Of a stretch of DNA of 44,910 nucleotides, positions 16,227 through 40,239 are shown one piece after another. How positions within the stretch are numbered: position 1 is the stretch's first letter; each line of letters opens with the position of its first letter. The notes beneath the pieces are model-generated. The model had not been told where the DNA came from, made no database searches, and saw nothing but the letters and a program-made list of their open reading frames with translations. Origin of the DNA: Nitrospira sp. UW-LDO-01. Lineage in GTDB: Bacteria; Nitrospirota; Nitrospiria; Nitrospirales; Nitrospiraceae. The stretch spans positions 1 through 44,910 of the forward strand of contig NIUT01000110.1 of the NCBI GenBank assembly GCA_002254365.1. The letters run 5' to 3'. The translations under genes and the position numbers were made by a program.

Positions 16227-17491
16227 GAGTTGTAGAAAGTCTGATCAATCTGTGCCGTATTGAAGAGTAACGCGTGCCGACGTGTATACACCGCGTGACC
16301 AAAGTAATGGTCACGCGGATTCGTTGAACCGGTGCTGTCTTTGTAATCGACGAGCATACAGCGGCCTTCGCTGGGAAACCGCACGGCCCGCCTCGCACAT
16401 TCCAGCCACCGTTCAAATCCATCATAAGGCTCCACTATCTCCCAGACCATTTTGTTCACAGTCTTAGCTGGTTCCGTTGTTGCCACAGCATCACTGCCGG
16501 CCACTGCCAATTCTTGAACGTAGTCCCCACCCCAGGCAATAGGCATCTCCATGGTGACTTGAGGCAGTTCCATCTTGGCCAGCCAATTTTTCCCATCCGT
16601 CCGCAAATTGCGGTGATTGACGATGTGTAGGAGCTTCCCAATCCCAGAGGTATCCCATCCGTAGCGGACCGGTGTGCCAAAGGTGACGATGTCGAGTGCG
16701 GCACCATTGAGGAGTGCCATTGTCGCGAGTAGAGATTCGATACGTGTCACCGTCTCGACGAGTGCCGGCTGGTTTGTCTGCTGCGCATAGCTGCCCAGAA
16801 TACTGAGTAGTTTGGGTCGTCCCGTGATCGGGCTTGGACAAAGGAGATTCGACACAAGCGCCAGAACCAGTCCCGCTTGTCCATGCGCTTGGACAAGAAT
16901 TCGATGCCCTTTTCCCAACCGTTGCTGTTTACAGAAATTGTGGAGTTCTGCGAGCAGGGACACAGCGCCGAGAGCCCGCCCCAGATGGTGGTGTTCGCAT
17001 GACCAAAGCAGCCTGTGGCATGAGATGGGCTGAGACAGATTCTTGTTGATGGCGTTCTTGAATGATTGAACGTAGGCCTCAGTGAAGTTTCCCGCGTCAC
17101 CGATCTGCTCATCCAGAAGGGTTTTCGTAGCATCATCGTTGACCAACGGTGGCTTGAGTCCTCCCGGCAGGAGGGGAATCCCGTTGCTTTCCTCGCGCAT
17201 CGCCGCGAGTACGGCATCGACCCCCGACACACCTCGTGAATAGCCCCGCTTCAATCCACCGGCCTCATCCAACCGCTGCATGCCAAAAAGATCGGTCCCA
17301 TGGATCGAGCCATGGAGAAAAACCACGCTTGCGACACCGGCTTGAGACAGGTTCGTCCCATGCTGTGCCATCGCCTCGCCCCATCGGGGAGAATCCGGAG
17401 GAACGACGTCCGTCAGATCGGCGATACGCAAACGCTGACCAGGGTTCTTCCGTGACAGCTCATCGTGTTGAAAATTATTTTCAGTCGGCAT
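16223..17491 (-). CDS. Alpha/beta-hydrolase (lipase)-like protein lacking the nucleophile serine
   Basis: This 422-residue protein has no clear signal peptide. VASVVFLHGSIHGTDLFG (about 53-70) resembles the oxyanion-hole strand of lipases. GHRILVQAHGQAGLVLALVS matches the nucleophile-elbow strand and helix, but the usual GHSxGG reads AHGQAG, so the serine position holds glycine. DIVTFGTPVRYGWDTSG follows, as in lipases (the VTFGxP strand), and a late HYFGHAVYTR could hold the histidine. It looks like a fold-retaining protein without classic hydrolase activity, but a different nucleophile cannot be excluded. It converges on lon and lies downstream of two exported-protein genes on the same strand. 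Confidence 0.6.
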   Translation of the reverse strand: MPTENNFQHDELSRKNPGQRLRIADLTDVVPPDSPRWGEAMAQHGTNLSQAGVASVVFLHGSIHGTDLFGMQRLDEAGGLKRGYSRGVSGVDAVLAAMREESNGIPLLPGGLKPPLVNDDATKTLLDEQIGDAGNFTEAYVQSFKNAINKNLSQPISCHRLLWSCEHHHLGRALGAVSLLAELHNFCKQQRLGKGHRILVQAHGQAGLVLALVSNLLCPSPITGRPKLLSILGSYAQQTNQPALVETVTRIESLLATMALLNGAALDIVTFGTPVRYGWDTSGIGKLLHIVNHRNLRTDGKNWLAKMELPQVTMEMPIAWGGDYVQELAVAGSDAVATTEPAKTVNKMVWEIVEPYDGFERWLECARRAVRFPSEGRCMLVDYKDSTGSTNPRDHYFGHAVYTRRHALLFNTAQIDQTFYNS

Positions 17492-18012: not shown

Positions 18013-19044
18013 CTAGCGACCTCCGCCCGGCACTCCGAAAGACGGAGCTCCCCGATGAGGCGAGCCTGATTGTTGTAATCCAGACTGCCCCTGAGGCACT
18101 CGCCTCGCTCCGCCAAACCCCTGTCCCGGTTGACCCATTGATTGACGATCCCCCTGAGGCACCCCACGAGGTGTCCGATGAATCGACTCATTGAGCGGGC
18201 GAGCCCCTGCGGATCCGCCTGGAGGTGGGACAAGCTCATGGCTCGGCATCCGACCTGGGTAACTCCCTGGTCGCGGGGGAGCGGGTGGTGTATGGGGTTG
18301 CCGGTAGGCGATGATCTGTTGGGCAATAGCGATATGTGGATTGGCCGGAAAGAGGCCGCTCGCACTGTTCAAGAAACCTTGCGGGATTCCCATCGGCGAG
18401 ACGAGCACCCAATTAGTCCAAGCCTGCGACACCATCGCATTCGATTGCACACGGTTCAGAATTTCTTTCCGCCTGAGCGCGGCCTGCTGCACTTGATCCG
18501 GTGTGGACGCACTCCCCAGCGCCTGATTGGCTGCCTGGAGTTCCTCTTGCAGCTGTTCATTTTCTTGCTTCAGCTCGGCTAACTGCACACGGGCATCTTC
18601 GTTTTCTCGGAGCGCCGTAATCGCACGTGCAACCTCCTCCGTATCCATCTGCGTCAGAAGGTCCGCCTTGATGACCACCACATCGCCGTCGAGAGTCGTG
18701 GAGATCTGTTGATTGAGCACCAGCACCAAGCCGGCGGTATACGTACGAATCTCGTCTTTGGTCACGTCCATGCCATTCACGATCGTCACACTTTCCAGAT
18801 ACGTGGCAACCTGCTCCAAGGCATTCCGCTTCGCCGCCTCCGTCGCGAGCCGGATCGCATCCTCACGAGTATCGCGGTTGCCCATGCGATGCTCGCCTTG
18901 GGCATTCACGACTCGAGGCTCTGCGAATGCAGGAGATAGGATAGAGAAATCGGCAGCGATGATGTGCAGGAACGAAACCAGAAGACACGTCCTGTACACA
19001 GCCACATAGCGGGGCAATGACGGTTGCTGGAATCGACCGGACAT
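18013..19044 (-). CDS. Exported protein with FlgT/LPP20-like domain, coiled coil and Pro/Gly-rich tail
   Basis: This 343-residue protein has a signal peptide with likely cleavage after A41 (SPAFA|EP). The domain after it has GEHRMGNRDTREDAIRLATE, then KRNALEQVATYLESVTIV, then VTKDEIRTYTAGLVLVLNQQ, a pattern seen in FlgT/LPP20-like outer-membrane proteins. A coiled coil follows (ELKQENEQLQEELQAANQAL). The C-terminal third is a disordered Pro/Gly/Gln/Arg tail. It shares the DxTxxEI...V/IxK element with the downstream gene. The start has GAGAGGG upstream. It is divergent from the phosphatase-like gene. Confidence 0.75.
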   Translation of the reverse strand: MSGRFQQPSLPRYVAVYRTCLLVSFLHIIAADFSILSPAFAEPRVVNAQGEHRMGNRDTREDAIRLATEAAKRNALEQVATYLESVTIVNGMDVTKDEIRTYTAGLVLVLNQQISTTLDGDVVVIKADLLTQMDTEEVARAITALRENEDARVQLAELKQENEQLQEELQAANQALGSASTPDQVQQAALRRKEILNRVQSNAMVSQAWTNWVLVSPMGIPQGFLNSASGLFPANPHIAIAQQIIAYRQPHTPPAPPRPGSYPGRMPSHELVPPPGGSAGARPLNESIHRTPRGVPQGDRQSMGQPGQGFGGARRVPQGQSGLQQSGSPHRGAPSFGVPGGGR

Positions 19045-20241: not shown

Positions 20242-20709
20242 ATGCGCTCCAAGACAGAAATAACATACCGGCTCTTCCTCCCCTGCATCGCCGCCATTGG
20301 CCTGCTGACTGTCGTGTTTTTTCAAGAGAGCCTTGCTGGAGACCGTCCGGCTGCCCATCTTCATGAACACCAGATCACCATTGATGCGACCAAGTTAGTC
20401 CCCATGTCATGGTGGCAGATACCCGGCGTGACGCCCTCGATCTGGAATTCCGATCCGGAGTCCCTTGATGCCCCTAAGACATCTGAGCGTCGTGACCTCT
20501 CACTCCGACCCGGCAAGTACAAATTCATCAGTTTCACCTTCGATTTTCCCTTTACCGTCGGCCTGAACGGCACCATCGATTTTTCACCGGCCTTGGACCA
20601 ATGCGTGCAAGGTCGTGGAACCCAAACCTTGGTTGTGCTGTGCAAACGCACCTACCCCCATGGTGGACAGCCTGACCCTTACTACAACCAGAAACCAAAC
20701 AATGGCTAA
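20242..20709 (+). CDS. Exported protein of unknown function
   Basis: This 155-residue protein starts 5 bp after the preceding stop. It has an N-terminal hydrophobic segment (FLPCIAAIGLLTVVFFQESL), so it is exported or anchored. The mature part is beta-rich, with LSLRPGKYKFISFTFDFPFT and TIDFSPALDQCVQGRGTQTL, and has two cysteines that could pair. Its end overlaps the first HEAT gene by 8 bp, so it belongs to the same transcript. No family is recognised. Confidence 0.7.
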   Translation: MRSKTEITYRLFLPCIAAIGLLTVVFFQESLAGDRPAAHLHEHQITIDATKLVPMSWWQIPGVTPSIWNSDPESLDAPKTSERRDLSLRPGKYKFISFTFDFPFTVGLNGTIDFSPALDQCVQGRGTQTLVVLCKRTYPHGGQPDPYYNQKPNNG

Positions 20710-22057
20710 CGCACTCGACAACCTATTAGACGCACTTGAGGACGTGGACGACGCTACTCGTGAGGAGGCGGCGAAAGCCCTCGCCGATCTGGGTGATCCG
20801 TCAACCCTCGAGGCGTTACTCGTTGCCTGCAGCGACGACTATTGGTCGGTTCGGGCCTATGCGGGCTGTGGCGTCTCAAAAATCGGCGGCCCCAAGGCGA
20901 TAGAAGCCCTGATCGGTTTGTTCAATGACCCGATCATGGAGGTTCGAGACCAGGCAGTCGAGGCCATGGCCAAGGTAGGCTCACCTGCCATCGATCGCGT
21001 AATAACAGCGTTGAAGGACGAGCGTTGGCGCGTCCGAGAACATGCCGCCAAAGTTTCCGGCAAGATAAAAGATCCTCGTGCCGTCGAAGCGCTGATGGTT
21101 TCTTGTCGTGACCGAGACGGAGCCGTCAAGAGTGCCGTGGCAGAGGCACTTGGCCGAATCGCAGATCCGACGGCCGTTCCAGCATTGATCAAACTGTTCC
21201 GGGATTCTTCAAAAATCGTCAGGGAAACCGCAGGAACCGCGCTGATGTACATCGGACAACCATCGGTCGATCCGCTGATTGAGAGCCTCAGCGACAAGGA
21301 TTTCGTGGTCCGCTGTCACGCAGCCCGGGCGTTGGGTGGGATGACGACGGACTATCAAATCGGCCGAACCTGGGTCCGTGATGCCAAGGTGGTAGAAGCC
21401 CTCATCACCGCATTGAAAGACCAGGATCGGGCCGTTCGTGAAGATGCGACGATCGCGCTCGGCATGATCGGCGACCCACGAGCAATCGATGCGCTGATCG
21501 AGGCCATGAAAGACGGTGCCGTGAAGCGCCATGCTATCGCCTCACTCGGCATGATCGGCGACCCGCGTGCACTCCCCGCCGTACTGGACGCTTTGAAGGG
21601 TAAAGGGATCAAGCAGGAGGGTTCGCCGACACCAGGATGTATTGTCAGCGAGGATGCGTTCATCAAAGAAGCGGCGGCGACCGCGCTGGGCCAGTTTCGC
21701 GATCCACGCGTGATTCCTGATCTGATCATGCTGCTGAAAGACGGGGTCTTACGTGAAAAAGCCGCGGCAGCACTGACCGTCATCGGAGATGCGGCGATCG
21801 AACCCCTTATTGCCTTTCTCTACGACCCCAAAGCCTCGGAAGTTGAAGCGGAAAAGGAACGGGTGCTCTCGTACGCCTCGGTTCGCCTGACGGCCAAAGA
21901 TGCCCTCAAGCAGATTACGCTCGAAACGTTGGAAACGCTTGGATGGACCCCTCCCGATGAGGAGGTCGAGATCAGTTCCAGCCAAGCCGACAACCTGCGC
22001 ATCGATCGGCCACTGGGACAGACCGGACGGTTTGGGCCCTCCGGCGACACGGTCTGA
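20702..22057 (+). CDS. HEAT-repeat protein 1 of 5
   Basis: From ATG 20702 this 451-residue protein is almost entirely HEAT repeats of the PBS-lyase type. About a dozen units of 31 residues follow the pattern DxxAVxxLIxxLxDxxxxVRxxAAxALGxIGD; examples are DPRAVEALMVSCRDRDGAVK and DPRAIDALIEAMKDGAVKRH. It has no signal peptide, so it is cytoplasmic. Such solenoids bind proteins or prosthetic groups rather than act as enzymes. The start overlaps the upstream stop by 8 bp (ATGGCTAA). The C-terminal 60 residues are charged and less repetitive. Confidence 0.85.
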   Translation: MANALDNLLDALEDVDDATREEAAKALADLGDPSTLEALLVACSDDYWSVRAYAGCGVSKIGGPKAIEALIGLFNDPIMEVRDQAVEAMAKVGSPAIDRVITALKDERWRVREHAAKVSGKIKDPRAVEALMVSCRDRDGAVKSAVAEALGRIADPTAVPALIKLFRDSSKIVRETAGTALMYIGQPSVDPLIESLSDKDFVVRCHAARALGGMTTDYQIGRTWVRDAKVVEALITALKDQDRAVREDATIALGMIGDPRAIDALIEAMKDGAVKRHAIASLGMIGDPRALPAVLDALKGKGIKQEGSPTPGCIVSEDAFIKEAAATALGQFRDPRVIPDLIMLLKDGVLREKAAAALTVIGDAAIEPLIAFLYDPKASEVEAEKERVLSYASVRLTAKDALKQITLETLETLGWTPPDEEVEISSSQADNLRIDRPLGQTGRFGPSGDTV

Positions 22058-22279
22058 TTCAATCCGGCGGATGCCGCATTCCTTCGCAGCACAGCCACTG
22101 AGCAGGTTGCTGTACCATCGCACGTAGCATGTCACTATCCCACAGGAATGTTCAAAAGACCGGACAGCAAGACCGCAACCAGTGACGAGGCGCCGCATAG
22201 TTAAGTCCGTATGTTGAGGCTTCCGAGCGACGCGAGAAGGAATCTTGCGGACGGCTTCAACATCCTGGTAGAGAGCAAC

Positions 22280-23377
22280 ATGGTCGATAGGGTTGCAGAA
22301 CAGATCGCAGCACTCAAGGATGAGGATTGGGCGATCCGTGAGGAGGCGGCACGTCTGCTTGGTCGGCTCAAAGATCCGCGCGCGGTGGCTCCCCTTGTGC
22401 CCCTTCTTCGGGACGAGGACCGTTCCGTGCGTGAAGCGGCAGTGGAAGCGTTGCGTGCTATCGGAACTCCGGCCGTAGAAGCGCTCGGATCCTGCCTGAC
22501 TGAAAGCAGTTTGGCGGTTCAAGAGGCAGCCTCGTCTATCCTGGCGACCACCGCGGATGAGCGAGTGCTCACTCAACTCGTGTTGGCACTGAGGAGCAGC
22601 GACTGGATCGTCAAGATGCACGCGGCTCAAGCCTTGGGCCGCGTGAAAAGCGCAGATACCGTCGATGCCCTGATCCCGCTGTTGCAGGATAAGGTCAAGG
22701 CGGTTCGCGAGGAAGCAGCCACAGCCCTGGCAGCCATCGGTGACACCGCCATTCCATGTTTAGTGCATGCGTTGAAACATGAAGACTGGCTGGTTCGCCT
22801 GCATGCAGTGGAATCGCTCGGGAAGACTCGATCCCCTCGTGCAGTAGAACCGCTGCTCTCGGTACTGTTCAACGATGCTGATTCCGCCGTTCGCGAAGAT
22901 GCCGTGCGGGCGTTGGGCGAAATCGGTGATGCTGAAGCCGTCGATCATTTATGCGTAGCCATGCGTGAACCGGGGTTACGGACCGTAGCGGTCGAGGCAC
23001 TCGGGCGTATCGGCAATCCCAGCGCCGTGCCCGTCCTAATCGATGTCGTCACAGGTGGCGCCCCTCCGGAAGCGACCAGGACAGCGGTCGGCTGTGGGGA
23101 TCAGTGGAATGAGGAGCTCATCACGCAAGGGGCCGCCGTACGAGCATTGGGGCTGATCGGTGACGACCGGGCGATTCCTTCGCTCGTCGCGGCGCTGAGC
23201 CCGACCCATACCCGCGCAGAGGCAGCCGCCTCATTGGCCAAATTCGGATCGAAGGTCGTTCCCGTTCTCATTCCACTGTTAACTGATTCGCTGGACGACA
23301 ACCTCCGGTTCCATGTTCGCGAGACCTTGACCCTCGTGGGATGGAGACCACGGCAGATCTCCATCAGCCGCCTCTGA
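22280..23377 (+). CDS. HEAT-repeat protein 2 of 5
   Basis: This is a 365-residue HEAT solenoid if ATG 22280 is used; GAGAG lies just upstream. An earlier ATG at 22211 would add 23 poorly conserved residues. Units include DPRAVAPLVPLLRDEDRSVR, DTVDALIPLLQDKVKAVREE and SPRAVEPLLSVLFNDADSAV. There is no signal peptide. It follows HEAT protein 1 after a gap of about 220 bp, the longest in the run, so an internal promoter is possible. The repeats are diverged enough from those of protein 1 that a recent tandem duplication is unlikely. Confidence 0.82.
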   Translation: MVDRVAEQIAALKDEDWAIREEAARLLGRLKDPRAVAPLVPLLRDEDRSVREAAVEALRAIGTPAVEALGSCLTESSLAVQEAASSILATTADERVLTQLVLALRSSDWIVKMHAAQALGRVKSADTVDALIPLLQDKVKAVREEAATALAAIGDTAIPCLVHALKHEDWLVRLHAVESLGKTRSPRAVEPLLSVLFNDADSAVREDAVRALGEIGDAEAVDHLCVAMREPGLRTVAVEALGRIGNPSAVPVLIDVVTGGAPPEATRTAVGCGDQWNEELITQGAAVRALGLIGDDRAIPSLVAALSPTHTRAEAAASLAKFGSKVVPVLIPLLTDSLDDNLRFHVRETLTLVGWRPRQISISRL

Positions 23378-23382
23378 ACACC

Positions 23383-24483
23383 ATGTCAAAAGAAACCATT
23401 GAGACCCTGGTCTCCGAACTCACGCACGAAGAAGATTGGCGCCGCATGCGGGCGACGGCAGCCTGTGTGGCCGGTGGACCACGATCAGTCCAGGCGCTGA
23501 TGGATGCCCTACGAACCGGTTCTACCGAGCTGAAGAAGGAAGCAGCAGCAATGTTGGCTCGTATCAAGGACCCACGGGCCGGAGTCGCCCTTGTCGAACT
23601 GCTCGAACTCGACGAGGACGGTGTCCGCAAGGCTGCGGCGACGGCCCTTGAACAGATGGCAGGTGTGCTCGATGTGGACACTGCAGGGGCGTTAGTCTCC
23701 TTGTTACCCCACACACCGGAAGGGCCGACAAGGCAGGTTCTCACGCACCTGATCGGCGCTATTCCCACCGCTGTGCTTCCCTTGTGCGACCTACTCAAAC
23801 ACCCCAATACTGAGGCGCAAATTGCATCAGCACTGATGCTTGATCAATTGCTAGACCCCCGTTCTATCGACGCCTTCATCGATGCGATGGGACAGCCGGC
23901 TGTTCAAGAAATCGCCGTCGGCACATTAAAGAAGCTGAGTGCCATTCGAGAACGGATCGATACGACATTCAATGCACTGCGCGACGTTGAAGGGGCCAGC
24001 GAGCGGGAAGAGGCGCGGATGGCGACCGTCATCGACCTCTTGGGGATTGGACGGCCGAGTGTGGAAATCCTTCTCGAATATCTCGAAGATGAGGATTGGC
24101 TCGTGCGCGAAGCGGCAGCCGACCTTCTTGGAAAAATCGGAGATGTCCGGGCCGTCATCCCACTGATGAAGCGACTTGAACAGGACAAGGATACCGGAGT
24201 GAAGGAGCTGGCGATCAAAGCGTTGGGGTTGATCGGCGACTCACGTCCGACCCAGCTCTACCTCGATGCCATTCCCATCCGACCGCTCCGGGTCTATGCG
24301 ATGGAAGCCTTGGCCAAGATCAAGGATGTGGGAGTTTTGCGTCCGTACAAGGATACCTTTGACCAACTTCGGACAGATCGTGACGGCCTGGTCTCGTATA
24401 ATGCCGGCCTGATCGCTGATAAGCTTGAGGCCATCATGGCCATGGAAAGTCAGACCCGAGAAGAGGACCACGAGCATGACTGA
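23383..24483 (+). CDS. HEAT-repeat protein 3 of 5
   Basis: From ATG 23383, 5 bp after the previous stop, this 366-residue protein contains HEAT units such as DPRAGVALVELLELDEDGVR and VRAVIPLMKRLEQDKDTGVK. A central part (about residues 100-210) is less regular and may break the solenoid. It has no signal peptide. It overlaps the next gene by 8 bp, consistent with translational coupling. No enzyme motif is present. Confidence 0.8.
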   Translation: MSKETIETLVSELTHEEDWRRMRATAACVAGGPRSVQALMDALRTGSTELKKEAAAMLARIKDPRAGVALVELLELDEDGVRKAAATALEQMAGVLDVDTAGALVSLLPHTPEGPTRQVLTHLIGAIPTAVLPLCDLLKHPNTEAQIASALMLDQLLDPRSIDAFIDAMGQPAVQEIAVGTLKKLSAIRERIDTTFNALRDVEGASEREEARMATVIDLLGIGRPSVEILLEYLEDEDWLVREAAADLLGKIGDVRAVIPLMKRLEQDKDTGVKELAIKALGLIGDSRPTQLYLDAIPIRPLRVYAMEALAKIKDVGVLRPYKDTFDQLRTDRDGLVSYNAGLIADKLEAIMAMESQTREEDHEHD

Positions 24484-25240
24484 GCAACCTGCATCTGATC
24501 GCATCGAGCAATTGATTCACGCGCTCTACGACGAAAACGAAGCCCTACGCGATCACGCGATCGCGAGCCTCGGCCAAACCGGCCAGGACGCACTGCCCCG
24601 GCTGATCGACCTGATGGCCGATGAGGACGTGGTCATTCGTGAGGCTGCCACCAGCGCCGTCGTGCGAATGGGTCTCTCGGTTGTTGAACCGATGATCGAG
24701 GCGCTTCAAGACAGCTCCTGGGCGATCCGTGAACAGGCGGCATCCGCACTCGGAAAATTGCGAGACCGGCGTGCGGTTGAACCGTTGGTGAAGGCCATCA
24801 AGGACCGTGACGGAGCGGTACGGACAGCCGCAGTATGGGCACTTGAGCGGATCGGCGATTCAGGAGCCGTCCCTGGATTGATTGAAGCCCTCATGGACAG
24901 CACTCTCCGAGAGGATGCCGCCCGCGTGCTCAAGAAGGTCGGCGACGTGCGAGCAGTTGAAGCCCTGATCGACGGACTGCTTGGGCCTAATTGGATGGTT
25001 CGCCGTCATGCGGCAGAGGCGCTGGGAAAAATCGGTGATCGCCGAGGCATCGGGCCCTTGATTGAATCGCTGGGCGACGAAGATTGGCTCGTCCGGCGCA
25101 ATGCAGCCGAGTCACTGGCTCGTCTCGGCGCACAGGAAGCCATTCAACCCCTGTTGCCGTTACGTGAGGACGAAAATACCATGGTCCAGGAAACCGTCGA
25201 GGCCGTGTTGGCGAGCCTCGGTTGGAATCCAGAACAGTAA
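24476..25240 (+). CDS. HEAT-repeat protein 4 of 5
   Basis: This 254-residue protein starts at ATG 24476 inside the end of the previous gene (overlap ATGACTGA). It contains about seven very regular HEAT units, for example SSWAIREQAASALGKLRDRR and VEALIDGLLGPNWMVRRHAA. It is a compact cytoplasmic solenoid and the most regular of the five. The end (ASLGWNPEQ) resembles the end of HEAT proteins 1 and 2 (GWTP, GWRP). Confidence 0.83.
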   Translation: MTEQPASDRIEQLIHALYDENEALRDHAIASLGQTGQDALPRLIDLMADEDVVIREAATSAVVRMGLSVVEPMIEALQDSSWAIREQAASALGKLRDRRAVEPLVKAIKDRDGAVRTAAVWALERIGDSGAVPGLIEALMDSTLREDAARVLKKVGDVRAVEALIDGLLGPNWMVRRHAAEALGKIGDRRGIGPLIESLGDEDWLVRRNAAESLARLGAQEAIQPLLPLREDENTMVQETVEAVLASLGWNPEQ

Positions 25241-25275
25241 ACCTTTTTACTTCATACCACAGAGGATAGATTCCT

Positions 25276-25983
25276 ATGGCAGATGATGCACCAAAGTTGA
25301 TTCAGATAGCGCCGAAGGGCGGCGAGAAAAAAGACGGCTTTAACCTCGTCACAGAACGAGTTGTCGCAGTTAATCCAGAGAGCCGGCAGCTGGAGGTCGA
25401 ACTCCTGGCCTACGACGGCAAGACGGTCCTGTTGGAGGTGGCGGAAGAAGCACTAGAGGATCTTAAAAAAATCAAGACTGGGGACGGCGCCACCATCCGT
25501 GTCGTGGAGGAAGGCGGCAAGCGGGTCGCAAAGAGCTTCAAGATCCGTCCCAAAGATCCGAATACCGCACGAGCCGATGCCATGTTGCTCGACATGAAAG
25601 ATTCGCACTGGCTGAATCGGAAATACGCGGCAGAAGTGCTGGGTGAGCTAAAAGATCCACGCGCGGTTGAGCCGCTCGTTGCGGCATTGACCGACGAAGT
25701 CGGTGATGTCCGCCAACGAGCCTATGATTCACTTATCAAGCTCGGAGGGCCTTCCGTTTCCTTACTGATTCCACTCCTCGTATCGGAAGAAGACGAGATC
25801 CGCCAATCGGCGACTGAAATTCTCCGGAAGATCGGCAAGCCGGCGGTGGAACCACTGGCCACCGCGTTAGCCGATGCCGATGATCGACTGAAGACAAGGA
25901 TTATGAAAGTGCTGGATCGAATGGGGTATAAACCAAAGACGAAGGAGGCAGCTCCCAAAGCTGAATTGCCGCGGCTGACGTAG
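25276..25983 (+). CDS. HEAT-repeat protein 5 of 5, with N-terminal beta domain
   Basis: This 235-residue protein differs from the other four. Its first roughly 90 residues form a beta-rich domain (DGFNLVTERVVAVNPESRQL, then VELLAYDGKTVLLEVAEEAL) of unknown type, somewhat like small RNA/DNA-binding barrels. About four HEAT units follow (DSHWLNRKYAAEVLGELKDP and others) and then a Lys/Ala tail. AGAGGA precedes the ATG. The downstream hairpins at 26009-26063 probably end the transcript. Confidence 0.82.
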   Translation: MADDAPKLIQIAPKGGEKKDGFNLVTERVVAVNPESRQLEVELLAYDGKTVLLEVAEEALEDLKKIKTGDGATIRVVEEGGKRVAKSFKIRPKDPNTARADAMLLDMKDSHWLNRKYAAEVLGELKDPRAVEPLVAALTDEVGDVRQRAYDSLIKLGGPSVSLLIPLLVSEEDEIRQSATEILRKIGKPAVEPLATALADADDRLKTRIMKVLDRMGYKPKTKEAAPKAELPRLT

Positions 25984-29301: not shown

Positions 29302-30123
29302 TTAGAGTGGGGGGATGGGACTGGGAACTCCCTGTTCATGGCACCCGCTCCAGCTCTGAAGACCACGATCACAGCCCTCGACCAGGAACTGGAGTACGGC
29401 GGCAATTTCTGCCTGTCTTTTCAGGAAATAGCGGGCTGACGAACCCTTCTTCCTACCCACCCTCACCGTCAAGATGCGATGGTCGTGCAGCGCAAAGACA
29501 TCTTCATCGGTTTCGTCATCCCCCACATAGAGCGCCAGGGAACAGTCAAGCCGACGCATGTACTCCAACAATGCCGTCCCTTTGTGTGAAGCCGTCGGCG
29601 GCATCACATTGACAACGGATTTCCCAAGAACAATGCGAGGAGGCGGAGACAACTCGCCGATCATCCGAGAGATCAGCAGCCGTGCCGCATCTCGGTGATC
29701 GACGGTTCGATAATGAAAGGAGAGTGAATAGGACTTATGCTCAATGGACACTCCACATTGTGCCAACTCATCGTGAAACCGTTCGGTGATCGACTGCAAC
29801 CACGCCCGACAGGTCTCACGGACCTGTTGCTGATCCTCCTGCCGCGTATGAGGGCCTTCTGAACCATGGTTGCCGATCAAGTGGGGCACGATCGCCCCGA
29901 CCCGTGAGTGCAGATCTTCGACGGAGCGTCCCGAGATAATTGCGGTGGGGACTCCCTGTGCAAGCTTTTCGAGCCATAAGCGGATGGGGCGCGACAGTTT
30001 GGCCGCATGGTGCTCCCGGACGATCTTTGCCAAGGTGCCGTCAAAATCAAACGCGTACAGCGACCTCCCTTTTACGAGTTTCGCTAACTCCAGCTTGCCT
30101 GTTTCCGTCAAGAGGTAATCCAT
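29302..30123 (-). CDS. otsB: Trehalose-6-phosphate phosphatase
   Basis: OtsB hydrolyses trehalose-6-phosphate to trehalose. The 273 residues show the HAD-fold motifs DFDGTLA (nucleophile Asp near residue 26), ISGRS, GNHGSEG and YVGDDETDEDVF (metal-binding acids). The standard length is about 260. It starts 21 bp after the otsA stop, so it is in the same transcript and supplies the second enzyme of the pathway. Confidence 0.93.
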   Translation of the reverse strand: MDYLLTETGKLELAKLVKGRSLYAFDFDGTLAKIVREHHAAKLSRPIRLWLEKLAQGVPTAIISGRSVEDLHSRVGAIVPHLIGNHGSEGPHTRQEDQQQVRETCRAWLQSITERFHDELAQCGVSIEHKSYSLSFHYRTVDHRDAARLLISRMIGELSPPPRIVLGKSVVNVMPPTASHKGTALLEYMRRLDCSLALYVGDDETDEDVFALHDHRILTVRVGRKKGSSARYFLKRQAEIAAVLQFLVEGCDRGLQSWSGCHEQGVPSPIPPL

Positions 30124-30144: not shown

Positions 30145-32385
30145 TCAACCTCGTAAACTCGGCCGTCGTACCTGTTTCATCACTCGTTCCTTTTGTCGCA
30201 TGCGAGCCGCATCGATGAGCATCCGGCCCGCCCACCGATACACATTGAACTCTTGGATCAACCCCCGCATGCTCTGCATCCTGGCCCGTTGCTCCACCTT
30301 CGGCATCGTCAGACCAAGATGAAGCGCCGCAGCGAATTGATCGATGTCATAGGGATTGATCACCAGCGCCTCCGTCAGTTCCCGAGCAGCCCCCGTGAAT
30401 TGGCTGAGAATCAACACCCCCTGCTCATCGTCCCGGGCACCGACAAACTCCTTCGCGACGAGATTCATCCCATCATGAAGACTGCTCACCACGCACAGAT
30501 CCACTCCACGGTAGCACTCACAGACCTGGGCCGGCTCGTGATGTTGAATGCGGAGACAGATCGGCTCATAGCCGGCATGCCCGAAGCGTTTATTGATCTG
30601 CTCGGCCAACGCAGAGACCTGACTGGTAAAATGATGGTACTGTTCGATGACGGAGCGGCTTGGTGCCGCGATCTGAACAAAGGTAAACTTCCCGATCCAT
30701 TCCGGTTGAAGTTCCAACAGCCGTTCCACCGCCATGAACCGCTCAAGTATCCCCTTCGTATAATCCAACCGCTCGACCCCCAAGCCGATGAGGCGATCCT
30801 CCGGCATGCCGTATGCCGCCCGCAACTTGGCTCGGCATTCTTGGATCGATTGCTGGCTAGGGAGCCACTGTAACGGCCACTCGATGGAGATCGGATAGGG
30901 GTTGACGGCTGTCAGTTTCCCACCATAGGACACCGTGGAGCTGTTCCGATCGATCCGTGCCTCAAGGGTACGATCGACACTATCGATGAAATTATTACAA
31001 TGCACCCTGGTGTGGAACCCGAGAATGCTGCTGCCCAAAAGCCCCTCCAGAATTTCCTCGCGCCAGGGACAAATCCCGAAGCTTTCCGCGTTCGGCCACG
31101 GAATGTGCCAAAACATGATGATCGTGGCGGTCGGCAACCGGTCTCGGATGAGCTTCGGAAGGAGGGCAAAATGATAGTCCTGAACGAGCACGACTGGATT
31201 GTCGGTCGTCGCTTCCTCATACACGGCCTGGGCAAACCGTTCATTGACGGCCACATACTGTTTCCAGTCTGATGACCGGAATGTCGGCCGAACATGTGCG
31301 ATATGGCAGAGCGGCCACAATCCCTCATTGGAAAATCCATAGTAATACCCAGCCTCTTCCTCTGCCGTAAGCCACACCCGACGAATTTGATACGAGGGAT
31401 TCGAAGGTGGGACACTGACATGGTGTCGCTCATCCACAACGTCCCTGTCCGCGGATCCGTTTCCATGCGCAACCCAGATGCCTGAACAGGCGCGCATTAC
31501 CGGCTCGAGCGCCGACACCAGCCCGCTGGCCGGCACCTGTACCGCAATGCTTTGTCCTTGCCAATAATGGGCGTAGGGTTGCCGATTGGAGACAATCAAT
31601 ACCTGGTCTCCGGCAAGTTGCTCATGAAGAATCGACTTAAGGCTGGCCGGTGTCCATGAAATCTGGCTCTCATCGCGCATCCGACGGTCGGACTCAAGCG
31701 CCTCCACCAACGAGCGCAAGTCCTTCGCCAGCGGCTGAAGTTCCGGGGCATGGTGCTCCTGCGCCAATGGAGTCAAGAGCCGCTCGCCCTTGACCATCGC
31801 CCGCACTCCGGCCACCCACTCTTTCCAGCTGAAATGCGCAATGAGCAAGGTCACCAGTGAGATAATCGCCGCAAGCGCGGCAAACAGATAGAAGGCATAT
31901 TGTTTGGTATCGCTACTCCGCTGCTGGATAAAGCTCATATCGTGGAGAAGGAGAAGACGTCCTAGCCGACGTCCGCTGGATTCGATCGTTGCCGACGTGA
32001 TATGAAGCGGTCCGCTACCGAACGTACGTACGGTGGAAAAGTTTGGCGCAAGACTCGTCATTTCTTGACAGGTGACATCCTCCGGGAAAGCCTGCGTTTC
32101 ATAAAGAAGTCGGTTCTCCAGGTCGCAAAAACCTAGGGCGTACAACCGTTCATCCTGAATGATACGGGTAAAATAGGCGGAGATCTTACTCTTTGAGTTA
32201 GAAACCAGTAGATCGGCCAGCGGTCCCCCCATTGTGCTGACCATGAGCTTGGACCGCATATCGAGATCGCGGACAAACCATTTCAGTTGGAATGAATCGA
32301 CCAGCGGAATAACCCCGTAGGCGATCACGGCTAATACGATCACCAAGGGGAGGACAAACCTTAGCGAAAGCGCGAAGAGCCTCAT
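30145..32385 (-). CDS. otsA: Trehalose-6-phosphate synthase fused to membrane sensor and HAMP-like region
   Basis: Glycosyltransferase family 20 domain: residues from about 262 to the end, with VLIVSNRQPYAHYW, VLVQDYHFALLPKL, FWHIPWPN, the nucleotide-binding GVERLDYTKGILERF and SSLHDGMNLVAKEFVGARDD. All key positions are seen. It makes trehalose-6-phosphate from UDP-glucose and glucose-6-phosphate. The N-terminus is unusual: helix 1 (about 9-29), an extracytoplasmic segment of about 130 residues, helix 2 (about 164-185, FYLFAALAAIISLVTLLIAH), then a HAMP-like linker (about 186-240). E. coli OtsA is about 474 residues, so some 260 are added. The upstream part looks like a sensor. Start ATG 32385. 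It precedes otsB. Confidence 0.9.
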   Translation of the reverse strand: MRLFALSLRFVLPLVIVLAVIAYGVIPLVDSFQLKWFVRDLDMRSKLMVSTMGGPLADLLVSNSKSKISAYFTRIIQDERLYALGFCDLENRLLYETQAFPEDVTCQEMTSLAPNFSTVRTFGSGPLHITSATIESSGRRLGRLLLLHDMSFIQQRSSDTKQYAFYLFAALAAIISLVTLLIAHFSWKEWVAGVRAMVKGERLLTPLAQEHHAPELQPLAKDLRSLVEALESDRRMRDESQISWTPASLKSILHEQLAGDQVLIVSNRQPYAHYWQGQSIAVQVPASGLVSALEPVMRACSGIWVAHGNGSADRDVVDERHHVSVPPSNPSYQIRRVWLTAEEEAGYYYGFSNEGLWPLCHIAHVRPTFRSSDWKQYVAVNERFAQAVYEEATTDNPVVLVQDYHFALLPKLIRDRLPTATIIMFWHIPWPNAESFGICPWREEILEGLLGSSILGFHTRVHCNNFIDSVDRTLEARIDRNSSTVSYGGKLTAVNPYPISIEWPLQWLPSQQSIQECRAKLRAAYGMPEDRLIGLGVERLDYTKGILERFMAVERLLELQPEWIGKFTFVQIAAPSRSVIEQYHHFTSQVSALAEQINKRFGHAGYEPICLRIQHHEPAQVCECYRGVDLCVVSSLHDGMNLVAKEFVGARDDEQGVLILSQFTGAARELTEALVINPYDIDQFAAALHLGLTMPKVEQRARMQSMRGLIQEFNVYRWAGRMLIDAARMRQKERVMKQVRRPSLRG

Positions 32386-32433: not shown

Positions 32434-34218
32434 GTGTACCAGTTCGGCCTCATCGGAAACTGCCAAATTTCGGCGTTGATCAGTGCCCATGGGTCGATCG
32501 ACTGGCTCTGTTTGCCGAGACCGGATAGCCCCCCGGTTTTTGGGAGGATCCTTGATCAGGAGGGGGGCCATTTTTCGATCGACCCGTCCGTTCCTCTCTC
32601 GGAAACGACCTCCAAGCAACACTATCTCCCGAACACCAATATCCTGGTGACCACCGTCTCCCTCCCGAACGGGGACGCGTACCAAATCACCGACTTCTGC
32701 CCGCGGTTTCTGCAGTATGGCCGCGTCTATCGGCCGACCGCCCTCTTTCGAATTGTGGAGCCGCTCAGCGGCACCCCTTCCATTCGCGTCTGTTGCAAGC
32801 CGGTGTCCGGATGGGACAAGACGCCGGTGCGATTCGTTCGCGGCAATAGTCACTTCCGGTACGACATACGCGGTGAATACTTGCGGCTCCTGACCGATAT
32901 GCCACTCACCTACCTCTGCGAGGAAACGCCGGTCGCGCTGACCTCGAAGATGTACTTCGCCTTGACCTGGGGGATCGGGATTGAAGACGACCTTGTCAAG
33001 GTCAGCCACGAATTTCTTGACCAGACCACGAAATATTGGCGCATCTGGGTGAAACATTGCTCAATCCCAGTGCTCTATCAAGAAGAAGTCATTCGCTCCG
33101 CCCTTGCACTCAAACTCCACTGCTACGAAGACACGGGGGCAATCCTTGCGGCATTGACGACGAGCCTCCCTGAAGAACCCGGCGGCACTCGGAATTGGGA
33201 CTATCGCTACTGTTGGCTGCGCGACGCACATTTTTCACTTTCTGCCTTCTATAACCTAGGACATTTTGAGGAAATGGAAGGGTTCCTCAAATTCTTATTG
33301 AACGTGGGGTATACCCGCGAACAATCACAGGATCGGCTGGCGCCGGTCTATACGCTCAGCCAAGACCTTCCCCTCCCGGAAACCGAACATTCCAATTGGC
33401 AGGGCTTTCTGGGAAGCGGACCGGTGCGCAGCCATAATCAAGCCGCGGAACATGTGCAAAACGACGTCTACGGTGAGATGCTGCTGACGCTGGCACCGAT
33501 CTTTTTTGACAACCGTTTTTATGACCTTCGGACAAGGGATCATGAAGCGCTGGTCGCAAACTTAATCCGATTATGCGAACGAAGCATCTCCCAACCTGAT
33601 GCCGGGCTCTGGGAAATTCGGAACGGCTGGCAGGAACACTCCTTCACGAACCTCATGTGCTGGGCCGGCCTCGATCGCGCCTACCGCATCCAGCGAGCGG
33701 GGTTTCTCCGCGACCTCACGATCGATCTCGACGCGGCACGAGCCAGAGCAGCCAACGCCCTGCTTCGAGCCATGAAGGACAAGGCCTTACGGAACGGCCC
33801 CAAGGACGACAGTTACGATGCTTCCTTAGCGCAATTGGCCATTGTCGGGTTTCCGGATCGAGAGGTCTGCGATACAACGGTCTCTCAGATCAAGCACTCT
33901 CTCGCCCTCCGGCACGAGGGGAAGGAGACCGGGTTTTTCTACCGGTATCTGCGGCAAGATGACTTCGGCAAACCCCAGGCAAGCTTTGTGATTTGCTCAT
34001 TCTGGGTCGTTCAGGCCTTGGCGAAACTCGGTCGCTTGCCGGAAGCCAAGCAGATCATGAATCAGTGCCTCACCGGTGCCAACAGCGTCGGACTTGTTGC
34101 CGAACACTTTGTGCCGGAGACCCGAACCCAACTCGGGAACTTCCCCCAAGCCTATTCCCACGTCGGCCTGATCAACGCCGCCTTCGCCCTCAGCCCTCCC
34201 TGGAGTGACGTGCTGTAG
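32434..34218 (+). CDS. Glycoside hydrolase family 15 (glucoamylase/trehalase-type)
   Basis: This 594-residue protein has no signal peptide. The start has GLIGNCQISALISAHGSIDW, typical of GH15. RNWDYRYCWLRDAHFSL lies in the barrel, GSGPVRSHNQAAEHVQNDVY in the substrate region, and GLWEIRNGWQEHSFTNLMCW carries the likely catalytic Glu. GH15 members include glucoamylase and trehalase, and standing next to otsA and otsB makes trehalose the most likely substrate. The start is GTG 32434, with no clear ribosome site. It is divergent from otsA with about 48 bp between them, so the two may share control. Confidence 0.9.
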   Translation: MYQFGLIGNCQISALISAHGSIDWLCLPRPDSPPVFGRILDQEGGHFSIDPSVPLSETTSKQHYLPNTNILVTTVSLPNGDAYQITDFCPRFLQYGRVYRPTALFRIVEPLSGTPSIRVCCKPVSGWDKTPVRFVRGNSHFRYDIRGEYLRLLTDMPLTYLCEETPVALTSKMYFALTWGIGIEDDLVKVSHEFLDQTTKYWRIWVKHCSIPVLYQEEVIRSALALKLHCYEDTGAILAALTTSLPEEPGGTRNWDYRYCWLRDAHFSLSAFYNLGHFEEMEGFLKFLLNVGYTREQSQDRLAPVYTLSQDLPLPETEHSNWQGFLGSGPVRSHNQAAEHVQNDVYGEMLLTLAPIFFDNRFYDLRTRDHEALVANLIRLCERSISQPDAGLWEIRNGWQEHSFTNLMCWAGLDRAYRIQRAGFLRDLTIDLDAARARAANALLRAMKDKALRNGPKDDSYDASLAQLAIVGFPDREVCDTTVSQIKHSLALRHEGKETGFFYRYLRQDDFGKPQASFVICSFWVVQALAKLGRLPEAKQIMNQCLTGANSVGLVAEHFVPETRTQLGNFPQAYSHVGLINAAFALSPPWSDVL

Positions 34219-34539: not shown

Positions 34540-34889
34540 TGGTGGAGGCGAGGGGAGTTGAACCCCTGTCCGAAGATCGTCAGTGCACTGTGTCTACATG
34601 TGTAGCCGACAATTTAAGTTTCGCAGCCATCCACGCCCGTCGGCAGGCTTAGAACAGCCACTAGCCCAGAAAGTTCTCATCCTCAGCCGCTGAGCACCGG
34701 CCTGGGACCAGCCCGCTGCATCGCGCCATTCCACCCCCGCGGGCCTCAGATGGAACGACGTCTCAGCCTAAATTAGGCTGCGAGTGCCAGTTCTTGATTG
34801 GCAGTTGCGTTTTCTCGGACTTTTACGAGTTCCCGAGAGCTCGACATGCGACAGTGACCTCAGTATCCCCGTCGAAACCGGTCGCCCCC
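34540..34889 (-). ncRNA. ssrA: Transfer-messenger RNA (tmRNA)
   Basis: The RNA rescues stalled ribosomes by adding a degradation tag. On the minus strand the 5' end is GGGGGCGACCGGTTTCGACG. The 3' end contains the T-arm GGGGTTCAACTCCCC and finishes CGCCTCCACCA. GGGGGCG pairs with CGCCTCC in a 7-bp acceptor stem with one G-U pair. The length is about 350 nt. The tag frame runs from the likely resume codon GCA at 34808 to TAA at 34773 and reads ATANQELALAA, ending in the usual ALAA degron. CCA is encoded in the gene. The resume codon is placed by comparison with E. coli and could be off by a few codons. Confidence 0.95.
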
Positions 34890-37297: not shown

Positions 37298-38767
37298 TCA
37301 CCTGCGATCCAGAAACCGTTTGGAGGCAGGGTAGACGCTCCAGAGCAGTTCGAGCGTCATGGACGTCAGCAGCGCGGTGAGTGGTGTCGGATTCTTATCC
37401 GTTCGGGGTTTGGGGTCTTGCGCCCGCAGACCAGTCCATTGTTCGTGCAAGACCGTCTGTTGCCTCGCTACCAAGGTTTTCACCTTCTCGACCCAGAACC
37501 TGGGATTTTCCGGATCCGACACATACTGCCCCTGGCCTCGGCCGAAGTGCGCGATGGCGAGGTACCGTACAATGACGTCTTGGACCAACAGATCCAAATA
37601 CTCATCCGACCACGTGACTGGGGTCGGTGTATTGCCGACACGCCGTTCCGCCCAGGCTTCTCCTCCCAAAAATCCGAGGACACCCCCAACCACTGCCCCG
37701 GCGACCGTAAACAGCCCCATGCTGACTCCGCCAGCCGCCGCGTCCAGATGGAGCCCGGCATAGGCCCCGCTGGTCAAGGCTCCACCGATCCCGCCAATCG
37801 CAGTACCGCCGAGAGTCGTCTCATCAAGGCCACGCGAGCTCCGTTGAACTTCCACATGCTCCATTCTGGCCTGGATGATCCCAACTGCATCTCCCTCCAG
37901 GCCATGCAGAGCAATGACGGCTTTCGTCGTCGCCCCCACCGCGTTCACCAATCCCCTCAACAGACCATCGACGGCCTGCTGTTTTTGCCGCTCCATCGGC
38001 GAGCCGTCACCTTTGGTCATCACCCGAGCTCTCGCGGCAGTCGACACCAGCATGGCCCACTGCTGCATCGCCGCGTGGAACACCGTGAGATTCGTGTGCT
38101 TCCAGGCAACAAACAAGCGCGTCATCAGCTGACGGCCGTCCGGAGGAAGCAACGATTGAATGGTCTCAAAGAGGATGCCTTCCTGGACCCAACAGCGGCT
38201 GAACGCATCAAGACTGTGCACCGCCCTGACGAAGCCATACCGAGCAAAGTAGTCCTTCCAAGGTTGTTCAAGACGCTGCTGTTCCTCGCGGTCTTTGGGT
38301 GGACCGATTTGATTCAAGAGGATGATGACCGGCTTCCCGATCCATTCGAGCAGTTGCAGTTCTGATGCAATGTAGCCGGCCATGTTCGGTTCTTCGGTCG
38401 CATTCACAAGATAGAGCACGACATCTGCCTCGTGCTGAACGTTCAAGACCGCCTGCTGGGCACACCAGGATGGCCGATCGCGAAATCGGTCCCATACTTC
38501 CGTCAGAATCCGAAGAATCGGGTTCTTAGCCCCTTGTAGTCGCGACAGGATCTTCTGACAGTTGGGAAAGCCTGGCGTATCCCACAGTTGCAGCGACTCT
38601 CCTGCTTCCGTTTCAAGCACCGTATACTTTTGACTCTCAAGTGTGACATGGGCTCGATCGGCGACGAGTCCGATCTCCTTCCGGAGCAACGTTCTTGCTA
38701 AGGTGGTCTTCCCAATGTTGGTATGGGAAATCAAAGAGAGCGCGATCTGAGATTTCTGCACGCTCAT
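37298..38767 (-). CDS. DUF3482 GTPase-like protein
   Basis: This 489-residue P-loop protein has an N-terminal GTPase domain with SHTNIGKTTLART as an unusual P-loop, LQLWDTPGF as G3 and VIILLNQIG as a shortened G4 (NQ in place of NKxD). A long helical region follows. Two glycine-rich hydrophobic stretches (about 320-380, LGGTAIGGIGGALTSGAY and VAGAVVGGVLGFLGG) could insert into or contact the membrane. It overlaps the DUF2868 gene by 4 bp, which is the known two-gene arrangement for these families. The role is unknown; a membrane GTPase module is the likely picture. Confidence 0.8.
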   Translation of the reverse strand: MSVQKSQIALSLISHTNIGKTTLARTLLRKEIGLVADRAHVTLESQKYTVLETEAGESLQLWDTPGFPNCQKILSRLQGAKNPILRILTEVWDRFRDRPSWCAQQAVLNVQHEADVVLYLVNATEEPNMAGYIASELQLLEWIGKPVIILLNQIGPPKDREEQQRLEQPWKDYFARYGFVRAVHSLDAFSRCWVQEGILFETIQSLLPPDGRQLMTRLFVAWKHTNLTVFHAAMQQWAMLVSTAARARVMTKGDGSPMERQKQQAVDGLLRGLVNAVGATTKAVIALHGLEGDAVGIIQARMEHVEVQRSSRGLDETTLGGTAIGGIGGALTSGAYAGLHLDAAAGGVSMGLFTVAGAVVGGVLGFLGGEAWAERRVGNTPTPVTWSDEYLDLLVQDVIVRYLAIAHFGRGQGQYVSDPENPRFWVEKVKTLVARQQTVLHEQWTGLRAQDPKPRTDKNPTPLTALLTSMTLELLWSVYPASKRFLDRR

Positions 38768-40239
38768 TGTGTGCCTCGAAAATCACCGGGCCACAAACAA
38801 TCGGGTAAAGCCTGCAGTTCTCCATCCGGCGATCCAGAAGGGTCTCGGTACCGCACAGCCCGAAGCCCACACTCGGTTGCCAGCGTCACCCAGGCTTGAC
38901 ACCGCTCTTTGAACCGTTTCTCGTGGTCAAGTTGCGCGTACGCCTCGCAATCCAACACAATCAACAGCATGTTCGGTCGGCCTCTGCTGTGGATTGTCGT
39001 TTTCAACTCCTCCAAAAATTCACTGTGGGTCTCCTCGGGCGCCTGGGCCAGATTGAACAAGACCACCGCGCACAGACCGCGATCGGAGTCGGCCGGAAAC
39101 TGGGGATGCCGGTCGCCGTATTGGACTGAGTTCCCGACATGGATGTGCGCCAGAAGACCAAAGGCCTCGCTGAGGAATGTGAGGAGACGATCGTCAGCAT
39201 CCTTTACCCGATGGCTGTACGCCAGCACCTCCACAAGTAGCCCTTTCCCTCGATATGGATTCAGAAGGCGTCGAAAGTAGGGCTCGTTGACTGGGAGCTG
39301 CATGTCAGCCGCCAGGCGAGTCTTTTTCCTCCAGACAGCCACCGCCAGTAAGGTTCGTGGGAGGATAATGAATAGCACCGTCGTCATCGCCCAGAAGTGA
39401 ATCCACATCGCCGCATTAACCTTCGCCGTGCCGCGCAAGCTGGCGATGGCATCCACGCCGGGCATCGGAATGCTCAAGAGCCAACTGGCGGGAGCAAAGA
39501 GGATCGAGAGAAATCGATGGACCCCCTCAGCCTCTACAAAGGTGCTGTCCCAACCTGCCTGATACAACAAACTGATGCCGCGTATATAGAGCCCCGCGAT
39601 CACACCGATCGCCAGCGCTGCCGCAGCCATGTGTAACAGACTGCGGGCATGGGTCACCACCAAGCCTCGACTACTATGGAGCAGATGCACGGCGTAAGAC
39701 GCAAGGGATGCGGTGATCCACTGGACTTCACCAGGACTCTGGGCCCGATCAGACCGCAGGCGACTCAGCCGTCCCTTCACCGTCAGTCCCACAAGCCATT
39801 CCACCAGCCCCGGCAGGCCGGGCTGTTCCAAATCTGATTCTGATCGAGACACGACGAAGTTGTAGAGCAACCCAATATACGCAACGGCATTCCAGAGGAG
39901 GAGTGTCAGAAGGGGAAAATTTAGAAGGTTAATGTGCCCGGTAGGCCCGATCGGGTCGGCGAGAAAGCCCCCTATCAATGCACAACCAATGAGGGGTGTG
40001 ATCGGAGTCTTGATTTGGGCGACGGCTACCGCTGAACCGAACAGAGAATGTTTTTGCAACAATCGATCGGAGATCTGCTCAGCTCGTTCAATGACCCTGG
40101 CCTCTGCGGCTCGTTGGTCTCGAGAATCGCTTCCTTGACCGGATGCCTCCCGTTCATACCGTAAGATAAACTTGTGCTCGGGATCATGCTCTTCACAGGC
40201 CTGAACCAGGAGCACCTTAGCAAGTTGGACAAGCGTCAT
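38764..40239 (-). CDS. DUF2868 membrane protein, partner of the DUF3482 GTPase
   Basis: This 491-residue protein has an N-terminal soluble helical part and about four to five membrane helices: around residues 80-100, 105-130 (LLNFPLLTLLLWNAVAYIGL), 205-225, 245-260 and 280-300 (MWIHFWAMTTVLFIILPRTL). The C-terminal half is soluble and has repeated strand/helix patterns (VLFNLAQAPEETHSEFLEEL, LLIVLDCEAYAQ). It is translationally coupled to the DUF3482 GTPase by an ATGA overlap. The two together suggest a membrane complex. No function is established. Confidence 0.8.
   Translation of the reverse strand: MTLVQLAKVLLVQACEEHDPEHKFILRYEREASGQGSDSRDQRAAEARVIERAEQISDRLLQKHSLFGSAVAVAQIKTPITPLIGCALIGGFLADPIGPTGHINLLNFPLLTLLLWNAVAYIGLLYNFVVSRSESDLEQPGLPGLVEWLVGLTVKGRLSRLRSDRAQSPGEVQWITASLASYAVHLLHSSRGLVVTHARSLLHMAAAALAIGVIAGLYIRGISLLYQAGWDSTFVEAEGVHRFLSILFAPASWLLSIPMPGVDAIASLRGTAKVNAAMWIHFWAMTTVLFIILPRTLLAVAVWRKKTRLAADMQLPVNEPYFRRLLNPYRGKGLLVEVLAYSHRVKDADDRLLTFLSEAFGLLAHIHVGNSVQYGDRHPQFPADSDRGLCAVVLFNLAQAPEETHSEFLEELKTTIHSRGRPNMLLIVLDCEAYAQLDHEKRFKERCQAWVTLATECGLRAVRYRDPSGSPDGELQALPDCLWPGDFRGTQ

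Follow-up and report, generated by a model that had tools for sequence, protein, structure and literature searches.

A trehalose-6-phosphate synthase fused to a predicted membrane sensor module in Nitrospira

Architecture of the fused protein

Can an enzyme of trehalose synthesis respond directly to conditions outside the cell? The question is raised by a gene on contig NIUT01000110.1 of Nitrospira sp. UW-LDO-01, of which we analyzed positions 1 to 44,910, hereafter the window. This minus-strand gene (30145..32385, read from 32385 to 30145) encodes a sensor-fused trehalose-6-phosphate synthase of 746 amino acids; the plus strand is interrupted by many stops in the same frame. A first-pass annotation had given exactly these coordinates, with no strand, and had described a membrane sensor architecture and an intact GT20 enzyme within one protein, a description that our analysis bears out.

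Hydropathy places two transmembrane (TM) helices at approximately residues 5–30 (TM1, 32296..32373) and 161–186 (TM2, 31828..31905) and none elsewhere, in agreement with the two membrane helices flanking an outer segment of about 130 residues that had been noticed at the outset. In an AlphaFold2 model, these regions fall within a long helix of residues 3–62 and a helix of residues 151–198. The segment between them is a predicted extracytoplasmic PAS/single-Cache-like sensor domain (approximately residues 31–160, 31906..32295). TM2 is followed by a degenerate HAMP-like segment (residues 187–241, 31663..31827), a connector of fixed length with a conserved tryptophan, W244 (residues 242–260, 31606..31662), and the GT20 (OtsA) catalytic domain (residues 261–724, 30214..31605), all encoded on the minus strand. 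GT20 is the sole Pfam domain above cut-off; a match to adenovirus E3B overlies a TM helix and was taken as chance. In keeping with the earlier suggestion that control might proceed without a kinase relay, the protein contains no kinase domain.

A search for the same architecture elsewhere, proposed at the first pass, recovered full-length relatives in dozens of genomes, which rules out an assembly or frameshift artefact. A bifunctional OtsA-OtsB identity was also ruled out, as the protein is extended at its N-terminus and otsB stands apart as a gene of its own.

Catalytic domain and genomic context

The catalytic domain matches PF00982 over profile positions 2–469 of 473 (E 1.3e-118; 397 bits, where the cut-off is 32.5), and its closest solved structures are trehalose-6-phosphate synthases. 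Substrate-binding positions were taken from the M. thermoresistibile structure, in which the roles of the residues in G6P and NDP-glucose binding have been described (PMC6879718), and mapped via E. coli OtsA. The residues that bind the G6P acceptor and the donor (R268, Y348, D403 and R577, together with R539, K544, D638 and E646) are all eight invariant in 46 of 46 members, so the initial view that the active-site motifs are intact is upheld. With the NCBIfam OtsA equivalog model TIGR02400, the protein scores 400.2 bits, under the cut-off of 564.85; given this shortfall and the conserved residues, we regard it as a GT20 synthase on the basis of its residues and not as a certified OtsA equivalog. 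Assignment as a glucosylglycerol-phosphate synthase was rejected, with a TIGR02398 score of 286 versus 400 for the OtsA model. In this genome, searched over 3.9 Mb at 99% completeness, the sensor-fused gene is the only GT20 gene, and no TreS match was found above the family cut-off.

The otsB gene, encoding trehalose-6-phosphate phosphatase, lies 21 bp downstream on the minus strand (29302..30123; PF02358, E 2.4e-30; TIGR00685 above cut-off), and because it adjoins the fused gene, trehalose-6-phosphate is the probable product. Upstream, at a distance of 48 bp, a divergent GH15 trehalase/glucoamylase-like gene occupies the plus strand (32434..34218; PF00723, TREH_N PF19291). Across 80 loci on public contigs, the fused otsA has otsB beside it in 78 cases and a GH15 relative close by in 64, with contig ends accounting for some of the absences; in Betaproteobacteria the GH15 gene is usually downstream of the fused otsA and in the same direction. 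The otsB and trehalase-like neighbors support a role in trehalose metabolism but point to no particular signal. The osmotic stress suggested at the first pass would be one possible signal. A scan for consensus promoters and terminators near the gene returned nothing better than shuffles.

Elsewhere in the window, Rfam and ARAGORN both locate a tmRNA gene on the minus strand (34540–34889) with the tag ANQELALAA; it is overlapped by the ORF listed at 34784, whose real start is therefore probably further downstream. Five consecutive plus-strand ORFs (20615–25983) resemble HEAT/PBS-lyase repeat proteins, the first matching HEAT_2 with an E of 4e-73. On the minus strand, a DUF3482 GTPase gene overlaps a DUF2868 gene (37298–40239), forming a membrane/GTPase-like pair, and two further ORFs, at 16223–17491 (422 aa) and 18013–19044 (343 aa), have no Pfam match at E ≤ 0.01.

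Distribution and ancestry

The closest public relatives of the window protein are found in Nitrospira MAGs, with protein identities of up to 97%. A profile of the N-terminus matches in 70 of 296 Nitrospirota genomes, mostly within the window's own family. Among 297 genomes that share a phylum with a deltaproteobacterial MAG, 27 match strongly, and there are 4 clear cases among 398 that share a phylum with a betaproteobacterium. The sensor-fused GT20s thus come from Nitrospirota and Pseudomonadota as well as from a deltaproteobacterial phylum. All sampled fused forms make up one clade in a GT20 tree (support 100/100), apart from the bifunctional and soluble Nitrospirota enzymes. We refer to its two halves as type 1, which contains the window protein, and type 2, its sister clade. 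A single fusion followed by spread would be the simplest history of these proteins.

Fold of the outer domain

The AlphaFold2 model, built from 47 aligned N-termini, has pLDDT values of 86–95 across residues 31–160. The long helix of TM1 leads into a second helix, followed by two strands, three long strands and finally TM2. With both Foldseek and VIA-align, extracytoplasmic PAS/Cache domains occupy the top ranks. The VIA-align comparison with the WalK receptor domain (4ywz_B) gives a Z of 13.6 and an rmsd of 2.4 Å over 126 residues, followed by LuxQ (3c30, Z 13.0), CitA (2j80, 11.8), CusS (11.3) and DcuS (10.9). With a confident model and these structural matches, a PAS/single-Cache fold is well supported as a prediction for the outer domain. 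The first-pass annotation had named the lack of a sensor fold in residues 30–240 as grounds for abandoning its reading; in the predicted structure a sensor fold is present there.

At the sequence level, the window protein has no match to Pfam sCache families, and single sister-clade members show weak single-Cache matches (E about 1e-3; 19.5–20.1 bits versus a cut-off of 28.4 for sCache_3_2). When PDB sequences were searched with the N-terminal profile, all matches fell below threshold, the best being a sensor kinase. Within its own genome, the same profile at E ≤ 1 did not find the sensor module with other outputs; weak matches to kinases in other genomes were judged to be ordinary sensors. 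In one relative (L224), the outer domain is interrupted beside the last sensor strand by a simple repeat, SSQIGSSEVG with variants.

Two cysteines of the outer domain, C87 and C106, are present in 36 of 36 members of the window clade and in 0 of 11 from the sister clade. This pattern would fit a redox or folding-state sensor, in which a putative periplasmic C87–C106 disulphide tunes the enzyme by its state. However, a purely structural disulphide predicts the invariant pair equally well, and we consider redox sensing improbable.

The HAMP-like segment and the connector

The segment that follows TM2 had been described as HAMP-like. Pfam HAMP (PF00672) has no match in 32 close members of the window clade, even at E ≤ 10. 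Compared profile to profile with 14 accepted HAMPs from the same genome, the window clade scores 16.2 (E 0.0062), and 2 of 300 column shuffles score as high. For type 2, comparison with accepted HAMPs gives an E of 3.2e-5, above all 100 shuffles, and Pfam HAMP is detected in 2 of the 14 proteins of the type-2 alignment (best E 7e-4, 20.3 bits, under the cut-off of 25). The whole N-termini of the two types align end to end in a profile-profile comparison (E 1.3e-23). At the column of the HAMP proline after TM2, all 11 type-2 sequences have proline and all 36 type-1 sequences have tryptophan (W190 in the window protein). The AlphaFold2 monomer model has low confidence at residues 204–213.

Taken together, the weak direct score, the recognizable HAMP that type 2 has at this position and the end-to-end alignment make it most likely that the window protein carries a degenerate HAMP by descent. 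The wording "HAMP-like" can be kept, with the qualification that the position is shared with relatives in which a HAMP is recognizable; plain "HAMP" would be too strong for a segment that lacks a Pfam match and whose profile score some column shuffles equal.

The connector to the enzyme is of nearly constant length. Among 139 distinct sequences, many of them close kin, P218 in the second HAMP helix is separated from W244 by 26 residues in type 1, and the corresponding distance in type 2 is 33, with three exceptions (L085 with 25, L215 and L217 with 32); for L148 and L223, the lengths of 26 and 33 were read by eye. The spacing from the conserved tryptophan to the SNR substrate loop is 22 residues in every one of the 139. 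The distance between the sensor and the proline of the second HAMP helix, measured in a smaller set, is variable, at 67 to 74 residues. The difference between 26 and 33 is exactly one heptad, and a near-fixed connector with a one-heptad change is as would be predicted for a phase-locked coiled coil. The split follows one deep branch of the family and may reflect a single indel event.

Selection and a natural loss of the sensor

Between close Nitrospira pairs, some with dS near saturation, dN/dS is 0.02–0.04 for the GT20 domain, 0.04–0.09 for the sensor and 0.03–0.09 for the HAMP-like linker. By these estimates, every part of the fused protein is under purifying selection and is being maintained. 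The low values in sensor and linker, together with the full-length relatives in so many genomes, rule out chance as the source of the architecture.

A GT20 protein encoded on the Aminobacter aminovorans plasmid pAA02 (L229:3342-5159) retains a single TM helix along with the connector tryptophan and the GT20 domain, and lacks the sensor. It is nested within the type-1 half of the tree and, judging by sequence, is a natural case of sensor loss. The gene can therefore persist without its sensor.

This plasmid-borne relative, having kept one TM helix while losing the sensor, makes a membrane anchor or scaffold the main rival to control by the sensor. The N-terminus would then tether the enzyme to the membrane, perhaps in the vicinity of OtsB, of a sugar transporter or of places where the envelope is made, with the Cache-like domain serving only to dock a partner or keep a dimer together. 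The eroded HAMP signature of the window clade also fits such a role. However, anchoring would make the conserved 130-residue sensor fold, the fixed connector length and the HAMP of the sister clade superfluous, and we consider it rather unlikely. A vestigial fusion, in which the N-terminus is a functionless remnant, would likewise agree with the degenerate HAMP and the one observed sensor loss, but it is hard to reconcile with a dN/dS of 0.03–0.09 over sensor and linker and with one clade persisting across phyla, and we regard it as very improbable.

A proposed receptor-enzyme

Computation supports the parts of this protein and their order, the sensor fold, the intact active site, the conservation, the common origin and the near-fixed connector length. 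We propose, at slightly better than even confidence, that the protein is a one-component transmembrane receptor-enzyme in which the Cache/HAMP stalk controls OtsA allosterically. The PAS/single-Cache domain, outside the cytoplasmic membrane, would read a cue, which may be a small molecule, a partner protein or a physical state. In a probable dimer, the pair of membrane helices and the HAMP-like stalk would relay the change inward. The connector, with its fixed helical phase, would then hand the change on to the beginning of the N-terminal lobe of OtsA, immediately ahead of the substrate-binding SNR loop, where it could shift the balance between the open and closed states of the enzyme. We infer a dimer, a signal and regulation, and with them a direction of control, the favored one being an enzyme restrained until signalled. 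The adjoining OtsB would then finish trehalose synthesis.

Allosteric control of this kind is made plausible by two properties of known synthases. Closure of OtsA displaces elements of the N-lobe by up to about 12 Å (PMC6879718), and truncation of the restraining N-terminal extension of plant class I TPS leads to higher activity (PMC6984353). The case for a receptor-enzyme is weakened by the degenerate HAMP signature in the window clade and by the sensor loss in Aminobacter. That the fused proteins form a dedicated receptor-enzyme family in at least three phyla, passing a Cache signal via a HAMP-type stalk to a glycosyltransferase and controlling trehalose post-translationally without kinase, second messenger or transcription, is in our judgment an evenly balanced proposition.

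If the receptor-enzyme proposal is true, a metabolic enzyme would be the output, with sensing and response in one molecule, and HAMP-type signalling would be able to drive an enzyme of unrelated fold. The stalk would then be a possible module for making enzymes signal-responsive. As the trehalose enzyme is built onto an outward-facing membrane sensor, Nitrospira and some other bacteria may tune trehalose production to an external signal and bypass the kinase and gene-regulation steps that are usual. This would matter for how Nitrospira, key nitrifiers of soils and water works, tolerate stress. The trehalose capacity of Nitrospira has been described via trehalose synthase genes (PMC7784846; PMC10308925), in contrast to the present genome, where the sensor-fused OtsA is the sole GT20 and TreS does not appear above cut-off.

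Comparison with known systems

In the open-access literature we found no description of OtsA, or of trehalose, in connection with fusion to HAMP, Cache or TM segments; protein-domain databases may list it. Like E. coli OtsA, the window protein belongs to the GT20 family, conserves the donor and acceptor residues that we checked and is genetically linked to otsB. In contrast to that soluble enzyme of 474 residues, it is extended at the N-terminus by approximately 260 residues, which include two TM helices and the predicted sensor. The placement of a PAS/Cache-like outer domain between two TM helices is shared with the histidine kinases WalK and CitA, and WalK continues into a HAMP stalk. Known Cache-HAMP stalks mostly serve kinases, cyclases, diguanylate enzymes and chemoreceptors. 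Here, the output is a biosynthetic glycosyltransferase and not a kinase, and the HAMP is eroded in the window clade. Plant class I TPS is also a GT20 synthase with an N-terminal extension, which restrains activity in the plant enzyme (PMC6984353), whereas the extension described here is a predicted membrane sensor module. The bifunctional OtsA-OtsB proteins of other Nitrospirota serve the same pathway and are of similar length (740–800 aa), but their extra length is a C-terminal phosphatase and they fall in a separate GT20 clade.
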